NCBI GenBank assembly: GCA_017462645.1
Contig: JAFTQR010000010.1
Location: 1-33,414, forward strand
DNA length: 33,414 nucleotides
Direction of reading: 5' to 3'
Source of the DNA: Acholeplasmatales bacterium
GTDB taxonomy: Bacteria; Bacillota_I; Bacilli_A; Acholeplasmatales; Anaeroplasmataceae
The notes beneath the pieces were generated by a model, which was not told where the DNA came from, ran no database searches, and was given only the letters and a program-made list of their open reading frames with translations. Position numbers and translations under genes: made by a program. Position 1 is the stretch's first letter. The number at the start of each line of letters is the position of its first letter. Shown in pieces: positions 6,179 to 33,414 of this stretch.

Positions 6179-6594
6179 AAAAGGTTTTAGTATTAAATGG
6201 TCCTAATCTTAATATGCTAGGTAAAAGACCAAAGGAGCATTATGGCTCATTAACTTTAGATCAAATTAATGAATTAATGATTAAAGAGGCAGATGGTGAA
6301 TTAGAATTAGAATTTTATCAAAGTAATTACGAGGGTGATTTAGTTACTAAAATTCAAAAGTCACTTACATATGATGCAATCATAATTAATCCTGCCGCAT
6401 ATACTCATACAAGTGTTGCGATACATGATGCATTAGAGATGTTTACTGGTGTTAAAATTGAGGTTCATTTATCACATGTTGATGATAGAGAAGCATTTAG
6501 AAGAATTAACTTTGTAAGAAGTGTTTGCAATGTTTGCTTTAGTGGAGAATTTGAGGGTAGCTATATCCAAGCTATAAAATATTTGAAAGATTAA
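6175..6594 (+). CDS. aroQ: 3-dehydroquinate dehydratase, type II
   Basis: It converts 3-dehydroquinate to 3-dehydroshikimate, two steps before the adjacent kinase. The protein has 139 residues, typical of the dodecameric type II enzyme. Motifs: NGPNLNMLGKRPKEHYG (with the flexible-loop Arg and catalytic Tyr), FYQSNYEGDLV, INPAAYTHTSVAIHDAL and EVHLSH (catalytic His). An ATGA overlap with aroK indicates translational coupling. The order aroQ then efp matches the region of Bacillus where yqhS lies near efp. Confidence 0.96.
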   Translation: MKKVLVLNGPNLNMLGKRPKEHYGSLTLDQINELMIKEADGELELEFYQSNYEGDLVTKIQKSLTYDAIIINPAAYTHTSVAIHDALEMFTGVKIEVHLSHVDDREAFRRINFVRSVCNVCFSGEFEGSYIQAIKYLKD

Positions 6595-6611
6595 AAAAAA
6601 TGTGTTATAAT
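6583..6611 (+). promoter_or_regulatory. SigA-type promoter for efp
   Basis: A -35 TTGAAA (6583-6588) and a -10 TATAAT (6606-6611) are separated by 17 bp, with TGT before the -10 giving an extended -10. It overlaps the last codons of aroQ, so efp can be transcribed independently of the upstream operon. Confidence 0.8.
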
Positions 6612-6643
6612 GTCTATTAGATTTTATAATAATGGAGGAAATT

Positions 6644-30893: not shown

Positions 30894-31295
30894 GGGCTTG
30901 TTATGGATTCGCTATGATTCATGAAGTTTTGTAAGCATGTAGCAGTAGACTGCTTTAAAAACGTCGAGGTTTAAATAACCGCAGAAGAAAACAATGATTA
31001 TGCATTCTTAGCTGCAAGAAGCAATTCTTGTGCTAACTATGCTTTCGCTTGCTAATAATATAATATAAGCGGCTCACCCTAGAAATCTCCCATGTTTTTA
31101 GGCTTGAGTTTTATTTCAGTGGGATATATCACTGCTGTGCTACTCTAACAGTAAATGATGAATACAATAGAGTGTAGTCAGTTTTTGGTTTGCTTATTCG
31201 CTTAGGGCTGATGAAGTATTTTGGATAAGATAAACATGTAGAAAGCAAAATGAATTGGGTTGTATACCGGGGTTCAAATCCCCGCAGGTCCACCA
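30894..31295 (+). ncRNA. ssrA: Transfer-messenger RNA (tmRNA)
   Basis: 402 nt. The 5' end GGGCTTG pairs over seven positions (two wobbles) with CAGGTCC before the encoded ACCA at 31292-31295. GGATTCG near the 5' end is conserved. The T-arm is CGGGG-TTCAAAT-CCCCG (31268-31284). The tag reading frame starts at GCA 30981 and ends with TAATAA (31053-31058). The 24-residue tag begins AEENNDYAFLAA and ends ANYAFAC. The ending resembles Mollicutes tags (-NYAFA) with an extra Cys instead of the common -ALAA. Position directly after smpB confirms the call. Confidence 0.95.
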
Positions 31296-31307
31296 TAAGA
31301 GAACACA

Positions 31308-31338
31308 GGTTTGATACAGTGTATCAGGCCTTTTTTTT
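31308..31338 (+). terminator. Intrinsic terminator of ssrA
   Basis: Stem GGTTTGATAC/GTATCAGGCC (two T-G wobbles, loop AGT; 31308-31330) followed by T8. Confidence 0.9.
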
Positions 31339-31447
31339 GTGCTTTTTTTAGGATTCGAGTCTCCTACGTATTTTTCTATAACGATTATTAATATAAAAAA
31401 ATAAGCAAAATATGGGTTCGAAACTCCGTGCTTATCAAAACTATTCG
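31339..31447 (+). other. Gene-free stretch with tRNA-like fragments
   Basis: No coding region is seen. Two pieces look like T-arm/acceptor remnants: GGATTCGAGTCTCC around 31352-31365 and GGGTTCGAAACTCC at 31414-31427. The second is framed by a 7-bp inverted repeat, ATAAGCA (31401-31407) and TGCTTAT (31429-31435), followed by CA, like a tRNA acceptor stem without its other arms. They could be scars of past integration at tRNA or tmRNA ends; neither forms a complete tRNA. Confidence 0.35.
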
Positions 31448-31537
31448 TTAAACGATTTGAGCGGGTGGTTTCAAAAAAAAGAGGGTGGTTTCAAAATTAA
31501 ACGATTTGGCTAGGTGGTTTCAAAATTAAACGATTTG
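31448..31537. repeat. Short tandem repeats at the 3' end of the recombinase gene
   Basis: Two full 25-bp units (GGTGGTTTCAAA...AAACGATTTG) lie at 31484-31508 and 31513-31537. A partial copy of the left half is at 31464-31476 and a copy of the right half (TTAAACGATTTG) at 31448-31459. Full units recur every 29 bp. The last unit encodes the final residues of the recombinase (KSFNFETT, read on the minus strand). Confidence 0.85.
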
Positions 31538-32121
31538 CCAATTTTATGTTCTTTTACTAATCTAAAAAATGTTCCTCTAGATACACCAATTATTTTAGCA
31601 GCTTCAATATTTGTTAATTCTTTATTTAAATATTTATCTAGTATGTCATTAACATTAGATGGAAGAATAGCTTTTGGTCTACCAAATTTAACACCTTTTT
31701 CTTTAGCAATTCTAATTCCTTCAGCTTGTCTTTGTTTGATGTTAGTTCTTTCATTTTCAGCTACAAAAGATAAAACCTGAAGAACTATATCAGATATAAT
31801 TTTTCCAACGAGATTTTTACCTTCAATTCTAGTATCAAGAAGCGGCATATCAAGTACCTTAATATCAGCGCCTATTGTTTTAGTAATTCTTGCCCATTCT
31901 TCTAAAATCATATGATAATTTCTACCAAGACGGTCTATTGATTTAATTATCAATAAATCGTCTTTTTTTAATTTCTTTATAAGCCTTTGATAATTAGTTC
32001 TAACAAAATCTTTACCAGACTCTTTATCGATATAGATATATTTATCATCTATATCAAATGCTTTAATTTCTTCATATTGTCTATCTATTTTTTGTTGTTT
32101 AGTTGATACGCGAATATATAG
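31510..32121 (-). pseudogene. Serine recombinase (resolvase/invertase family), 5' end lost at a junction
   Basis: About 203 residues remain. The catalytic Ser is in LYIRVSTKQQ at the very start. The conserved IDKESGKDF and the SIDRLGRN motif (catalytic Asp/Arg residues) follow, then a long helix with FVAENERTNIKQRQAEGI, the hinge GVKFGRPK and a Hin-like helix-turn-helix (TNIEAAKIIGVSRGTFFRLV). Members normally begin only 3-6 residues before YIRVST, but here no start codon exists there: the frame continues open for about 85 codons up to an ATG at 32382, antisense to the methyltransferase. So the gene has lost its first few codons at the head-to-head junction near 32120, or that junction is artificial. 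Function, if intact: site-specific inversion, resolution or transposition. Confidence 0.8.
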
Positions 32122-32122
32122 A

Positions 32123-33414
32123 TGTGCTGGTACAGGAAATTTGGAAGATGTTTTGACCGATGAAGAGTTATCACACGTTATTATAAATACATATGAACTT
32201 AAGGAATGGTATGTTCTTAAAGACAGGATTGGACATAGAGTTAGATATATTATACCGCCAATTCCACAACCACCCAAAGAATTACCAGATTTAAATGAAG
32301 AAGGTTTTTTAAGCGGTGCAAATGCATTATCTAAGGATTTTATTGATTCTGTTTTAAAAATAATTGATGAAACTAAAATCAAAGAGAAAGTAAATATTAT
32401 CTTATATGAAAATCCACCATATGCTGAAACTACAAGTATAGAATTTCAAAAACGAAATCAAGGAAAAGAACAATCAGATTGGAAAAATTCGTACGTAGTT
32501 AAAGAAATGAAAAAAGATGTTAAAGGACCAGCATCGAATGATATGGGAAATGCATTTATTTGGTCAGGTTTCAAATATTTCTTAAAAGATATAAACGATA
32601 GTTATGTAATTTTTTCACCTGCTAAATATTGGAAGGCTCAGCATTTAATTAATAAAAAATTTATTGATGGGTATGCATGTAATAGAAGCTTTTTTCATGC
32701 ACCAACTCCAGCATGCATAATGTTATGTCTTTGGAGTAATGAAGATGAAATAATTGATGAAATTGAAATTAATGCAATAAATTTAGACGAACATGAAGGT
32801 TTCATTGATGAAGGTTTTATTAAAGTTAAAAGAATTTATTCGTTATTTAGTGACAGATTTTATGATAATCGTACTTTTGATGATGATACATTTGATGGTA
32901 TAGTTTGTGAATTGGATGGTACAGAATCATTTAAAGAAGAAAGTCAAATTAGATTGAATAAGAATTATAATAGTAATATATTAGGATATTTAGTGGCACA
33001 AGCTTCAGGTTTTGATAATAACAGACTTTTATCTTCATTTCATATATCAGGTAGATATAATGCGAATGGTTTTTATTTAAGAAATGACTCTTTTATAGAT
33101 AAACTACCAATATTTGTTGCTTCTAGATATTCTGATCATTATAACGATTGGAAGATAATGTCGATGATTATGAAATCTGCTGATATGGCTGATAAATATT
33201 ATGAAGACATAAAAAATGGTAAATTGAATAACTTTTTATGCAAGTGTTTAATATGGGTATCATTATCACATTATCCACATATGCGTTCTTTAAAAGGAAG
33301 TGATAATAGGTTATATATTAATCAAATTTGTTTTGATGGTGATGACACATTAGCTTCAATTAAATTAAAAGAATTTATTTTAAATGGATATATTTTAACG
33401 CCTGAAGAAGAAGA
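32123..33414 (+). pseudogene. Adenine-N6 DNA methyltransferase (type IIG/Eco57I-like), N-terminus missing, runs off the window
   Basis: The frame is open from the junction to the last base (about 430 residues) with no start codon at its head. It begins exactly at motif I: CAGTGNLE, which in intact enzymes is preceded by DP or similar. Motif IV, the adenine target motif NPPY, is at 32411-32422. Downstream, FIWSGFKYFL, VIFSPAKYWK and later segments fit the catalytic and target-recognition parts of such enzymes, and the rest lies beyond the window. Without the sequence before motif I it could not bind SAM normally. Glu is nearly always GAA and AGCT is rare, unlike the core genes. The exact class (orphan methylase, type IIG or type I-like) cannot be told. 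Confidence 0.72.

Follow-up and report, generated by a model that had tools for sequence, protein, structure and literature searches.

Near the end of the window (the whole stretch of DNA analyzed here, a contig of 33,414 bp designated G000:C40), the genes for a small serine recombinase and for an N6-adenine methyltransferase are transcribed divergently, and both lose their 5′ ends at a single point, positions 32118 to 32119, located 1,296 bp from the contig end. With a probability of roughly two in three, this junction is the scar of a deletion of ~1.0 to 1.2 kb in a locus whose genes naturally stand head to head. The native partner is presumed from distant homologues, through which alone the parental locus is known. 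Such a locus would comprise a serine invertase gene reading leftward, an intergenic invertible segment of ~110 to 125 bp, and a divergent restriction-modification (R-M) gene reading rightward; where the locus is whole, as in relatives, the segment would carry a promoter, and its inversion by the invertase would switch R-M expression between on and off. The deletion would have removed ~12 nt from the start of the invertase gene, the entire switch, and the first ~260 to 300 codons of the methyltransferase gene (sizes estimated by comparison with relatives), joining the ends over a 2-bp overlap, with permanent loss of the switch. As a broken copy, the junction itself is of little weight and the scar is ordinary; it leads to a family of invertase-opposite-R-M loci that constitutes a modestly new variation on invertible-promoter phase variation.

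Two genes truncated at one point

The recombinase gene (31510..32119, minus strand) is coherent from its stop codon at 31510 up to 32119, and its remaining frame contains no internal stop or frameshift. Its relatives start with ATG/TTG-ATT-TAT-GCA-TAT-AT(A/T)-CG, encoding M/L-I-Y-A-Y-I-R-V-S-T (one copy has F for Y and one has G for A), and agreement of the window sequence with them begins at the final base of GCA; no ATG, GTG, or TTG is found at the expected start. The product is thus a truncated member of the small serine recombinases in which neither the start nor the first beta strand is intact (~4 residues are missing). It retains the Resolvase N-terminal catalytic domain (PF00239, E value of 4.9e-24), including the catalytic Ser of the IRVST motif, matches the PHROG family “DNA invertase” (E value of 2.9e-47), and has Sin/Tn552 bin3 as its nearest relative among solved structures (E value of 2.7e-26). 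The nearest NCBIfam model is Mpi, but the score of 76 bits is far below the model cutoff of 272, which rules out an assignment to Mpi itself. An apparent 290-aa open reading frame at 31510 to 32382 reflects accidental read-through of the recombinase frame into antisense methyltransferase sequence.

The methyltransferase gene (32118..33414, plus strand), which also runs off the contig at its 3′ end, is coherent from 32118, where AT-AGA-TGT encodes [D]RCAGTGNLE, again with no internal stop or frameshift. Its relatives read I(I/L)DRCAGTGNLE in this region, and the match to the window begins with the final two bases of the codon for Asp. The preserved part therefore starts inside motif I (CAGTGNLE) and includes NPPY, while the N-terminal domain and motif X (GAFYT), which lie within the ~260 (P0003) or 303 (P0004) residues that precede CAGTG in full-length relatives, are gone. 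The two coherent parts have the AT at 32118 to 32119 in common, a count that assumes the codons GCA and GAT usual in relatives. With the base composition of the window, an overlap of at least 2 bp is expected by chance in ~21% of cases, so this one carries no mechanistic weight. Both window genes should be nonfunctional or nearly so.

An earlier sequence-only reading had already described a head-to-head pair that loses both starts at one point, with a resolvase/invertase-type recombinase coherent up to the IRVST region without a start codon and a methyltransferase coherent from CAGTGNLE, and all of this is borne out by comparison with relatives. Its description of the cut parts as “catalytic N-termini” holds for the methyltransferase to the extent that the N-terminal domain and motif X are lost; it does not hold for the catalytic Ser of the recombinase or for the CAGTG and NPPY motifs of the methyltransferase, all of which are kept.

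The methyltransferase family has no match in Pfam, NCBIfam, or PADLOC. The 25 relatives detected in public genomes include those from gut Clostridia and Prevotella (~41 to 49% identity for most) and from Patescibacteria (~37 to 39% identity); phage records and viral contigs contained no relative. The structure of one full-length relative, predicted by AlphaFold with moderate quality (pLDDT of 73.9, pTM of 0.50), has MmeI as its best fold match, followed by CamA, M.BseCI, and DrdV (TM scores of about 0.2). Full-length relatives display the motif order X-I-IV and an N-terminal D..ExK-like stretch, which we read as a predicted nuclease part. In our reading, the window gene would encode the portion of a single-chain R-M-like enzyme that carries the methyltransferase. 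The predicted fold, the motif order, and the D..ExK-like stretch liken the family to single-chain Type IIG/IIL R-M enzymes such as MmeI; the modest quality of the model and the lack of Pfam or PADLOC hits set the window family apart from them.

Native head-to-head layout and the invertible segment

In the close relatives of the locus, whose recombinases are 83 to 87% identical to that of the window, the next gene upstream of the recombinase is divergent and usually belongs to an R-M system. The recombinase faces a set of genes for an HTH regulator, a D12 methyltransferase, and an HNH nuclease in locus L049, D12 and N6_N4 methyltransferases in L053, and, in L050, the N-terminal part of an R-M-like protein that is truncated close to the end of the contig; in L102, a recombinase pseudogene faces an operon encoding a Methylase_S protein. 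An HTH protein occupies this position in L054, and in L052 the contig ends within the intergenic region. In L051, which comes from the same genus as the window, the opposite gene encodes a 763-aa methyltransferase with the CAGTGNLE motif. This protein, a full-length distant homologue, aligned with the window family profile over 654 columns (hhalign probability of 98.2%), and L051 thus represents the unbroken counterpart of the window junction, except for a nonsense codon in its recombinase gene. Direct searches with the window methyltransferase gave no match in related genomes, including that of L051, and same-genus DNA matches beyond the recombinase included none convincing to the methyltransferase.

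More distant recombinases (61 to 68% identity) face DpnII-type cassettes in L057 (identified by Pfam) and in L060, L061, and L065 (whose genes are similarly ordered), a Type III pair in L059, and another methyltransferase in L064. They also face non-R-M genes, such as the one encoding a 2,854-aa protein in L058. In that locus (+332 to +8893), the invertase gene lies opposite the gene for this large protein, and two sites may form an inverted pair there, although 3 of the 60 shuffles reached its level; the module may thus also switch a large non-R-M protein. L060 and L062 occupy the same chromosomal site (oriented on the recombinase start): L060 carries two inverted sites together with a DpnII-type cassette, whereas L062 has neither the cassette nor the second site, and the left boundary of the difference falls at the recombinase-side site.

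The segment of 110 to 124 bp between the recombinase and the divergent R-M gene points one way in some relatives and the other way in others, which is why we consider it invertible. The inverted alignment of the L049 and L050 segments scored 126, compared to 60 for the same-way alignment (null mean of 54.8, standard deviation [SD] of 6.5), and that of the L054 and L052 segments scored 109, compared to 59 (null mean of 54.1, SD of 6.5); the difference between L049 and L052 was weaker (84 and 53, respectively). Local alignment reproduced the same grouping, with L049 and L054 on one side and L050, L051, and L052 on the other, some single comparisons being near the null range. Farther away, L056, L057, L060, L061, and L068 each carry, between the recombinase and the divergent gene, an inverted pair of 19- to 27-bp sites around ~90 to 110 bp, and each pair exceeds all 60 dinucleotide shuffles. 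The sites of the window clade are asymmetric around a GTATA center; because of these asymmetric half-sites, scanning for simple inverted repeats fails to reveal the switch in most members of this clade, where its detection requires the comparison of orientations.

The segment is placed so as to drive transcription of the R-M gene and would be flipped by the adjacent invertase. In L049, an extended −10-like element, TGATATAAT, reads toward the R-M gene, which fits an ON state, but a consensus promoter scan of L049 found no excess over shuffles; TATACT stands at the matching place in L050. The contig end of L052 (G008:C58, positions 1 to 76) is an exact 76-bp reverse complement of its own recombinase leader that turns back at the crossover site, which suggests either the presence of both orientations in one sample or a snap-back artifact. 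In L053, the region from +1 to +140 relative to the recombinase start contains a single half-site region, and nothing intervenes between it and the methyltransferase start, so that the switch segment seems to be missing there too. In-frame stops are present in the invertase copies of L051, L055, L066, L100, and L102; if they do not stem from sequencing errors, the switch enzyme has been inactivated repeatedly.

A probable deletion and its alternatives

A deletion in such a locus explains the loss of two 5′ ends at one point, the intactness of both remaining frames, and the absence of a reciprocal product. No convincing similarity to the relatives' switch was detected at 32051 to 32350 of the window, where no trace of it is left, and the only match to a AAGGTRTACCTT-type site is at chance level and lies elsewhere in the window. 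No second copy of the junction was found in the same genome or in viral contigs.

The main rival, itself rather unlikely and also raised in the sequence-only reading, is a chimeric join within this one locus: an assembly error or a chimeric fragment in the library would have skipped the middle of the head-to-head locus (or, in another version, joined unrelated pieces), leaving the locus in the genome intact. The proximity of the junction to the contig end, 1.3 kb away in a fragmented assembly of 47 contigs (1.0 Mb, estimated to be 65% complete), speaks for such an origin, and related loci break or are misassembled at the same place, the contig end of L052 mirroring its own leader and L050 ending in the R-M gene. 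A break of nonbiological origin is also expected to leave both frames undecayed, as they are. On the other hand, a k-mer assembler would need reads spanning a join with a mere 2-bp overlap and then coverage for a further 1.3 kb, the two parts have similarly low GC3 values (0.12 for the recombinase and 0.15 for the methyltransferase), and the two genes that meet here form just the sort of pair that relatives natively carry side by side.

The sequence-only reading had instead placed one end of an inversion at 32120, with the missing gene ends joined elsewhere. This is very improbable: the adjoining enzyme is indeed invertase-like, but the head-to-head arrangement is native in relatives, the DNA that flips there is the 110- to 124-bp intergenic segment and not the coding ends, and the junction displays no recombination half-site or trace of a switch. 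A search of the same genome for the missing methyltransferase N terminus, with a probe from a distant relative and a genome that is 65% complete, did not find it; a distant-relative probe for the C terminus likewise found nothing there. Phase variation of an R-M locus caught in the OFF orientation, proposed in the same reading, stands in part: the locus belongs to an invertase-switched R-M family, but OFF is inapplicable where the switch itself is gone. The accompanying suggestion that loss of the recombinase would lock the state is supported. Hardly credible, finally, is an aberrant reaction in which the invertase cut two pseudo-sites sharing an AT core, one within its own gene and the other within the methyltransferase gene, and the DNA between them was deleted: the common 2 bp are AT, and the GTATA(C) site center of relatives is compatible with a 2-bp core of AT or TA, but half-site likeness does not extend past these 2 bp, and overlaps of this length are common by chance.

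Relation to known switches and genomic setting

The loci described here resemble invertons, such as those of the Bacteroides fragilis Mpi family, in having a small serine recombinase beside a short intergenic segment that occurs in both orientations and is placed to drive a divergent operon. One report (PMC11892184) describes known gut invertons as often located near cell surface genes; in contrast, the commonest neighbors in the window's family are R-M genes. An R-M system under a recombination-based switch is also the hallmark that these loci share with phasevarions. Phase variation of R-M systems by site-specific recombination has been described chiefly as hsdS shuffling within the coding region (PMC11868660, PMC11096450), which in Mycoplasma hominis involves a tyrosine-type invertase (PMC11096450), unlike the intergenic segment and serine recombinase of the window's family. 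Invertible promoters have been suggested as possible methyltransferase switches (PMC10333322). The open-access literature searched yielded neither an account of this serine-invertase/R-M family nor a report of Type II or Type III R-M systems under a promoter switch flipped by a serine invertase, which is weak evidence of absence.

A broader proposal, whose chances appear evenly balanced, is that one portable module of invertase and promoter switch, which repeated exchanges have linked to unrelated R-M systems (Type I-like, II, IIG-like, and III) and which often resides in tRNA- or tmRNA-side islands, makes host defense phase-variable across a bacterial order, with repeated loss or breakage of the switch locking the state. 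If the switch works as outlined above, restriction and genome methylation would flip on and off at random in these bacteria, with effects on resistance to phages, on the uptake of DNA, and on gene expression that depends on methylation.

In the window, the broken module lies directly downstream of the 3′ end of the tmRNA (ssrA) gene (30894..31295, plus strand). A same-genus contig (G017:C8, locus L059) begins within the tmRNA 3′ end (positions 1 to 77), which is separated by a 6.4-kb island with invertase and Type III R-M genes from a sequence at 6452 to 6626 whose counterpart follows the tmRNA directly, with no island, in the tmRNA region of the window (30894 to 31537). The tmRNA 3′ end thus looks like an integration hotspot. 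A tRNA gene is found just downstream of the recombinase in 4 of the 7 relatives of the 83 to 87% identity clade (L049, L050, L052, and L053) and, together with the tmRNA island of L059, this indicates that the module tends to adjoin tRNA or tmRNA genes.

Between the tmRNA and recombinase genes of the window, short direct repeats of the form TTAAACGATTTG..GGTGGTTTCAAAA occupy positions 31448 to 31537, and a similar unit flanks the island in the same-genus genome (L059, 6584 to 6626). Blocks of this kind, some of them variant, reappear in the interval that separates the invertase 3′ end from tRNA or tmRNA genes and are perhaps the ends of an insertion element. Repeat blocks of the same type are also present downstream of the recombinases in L006, L007, and L009.
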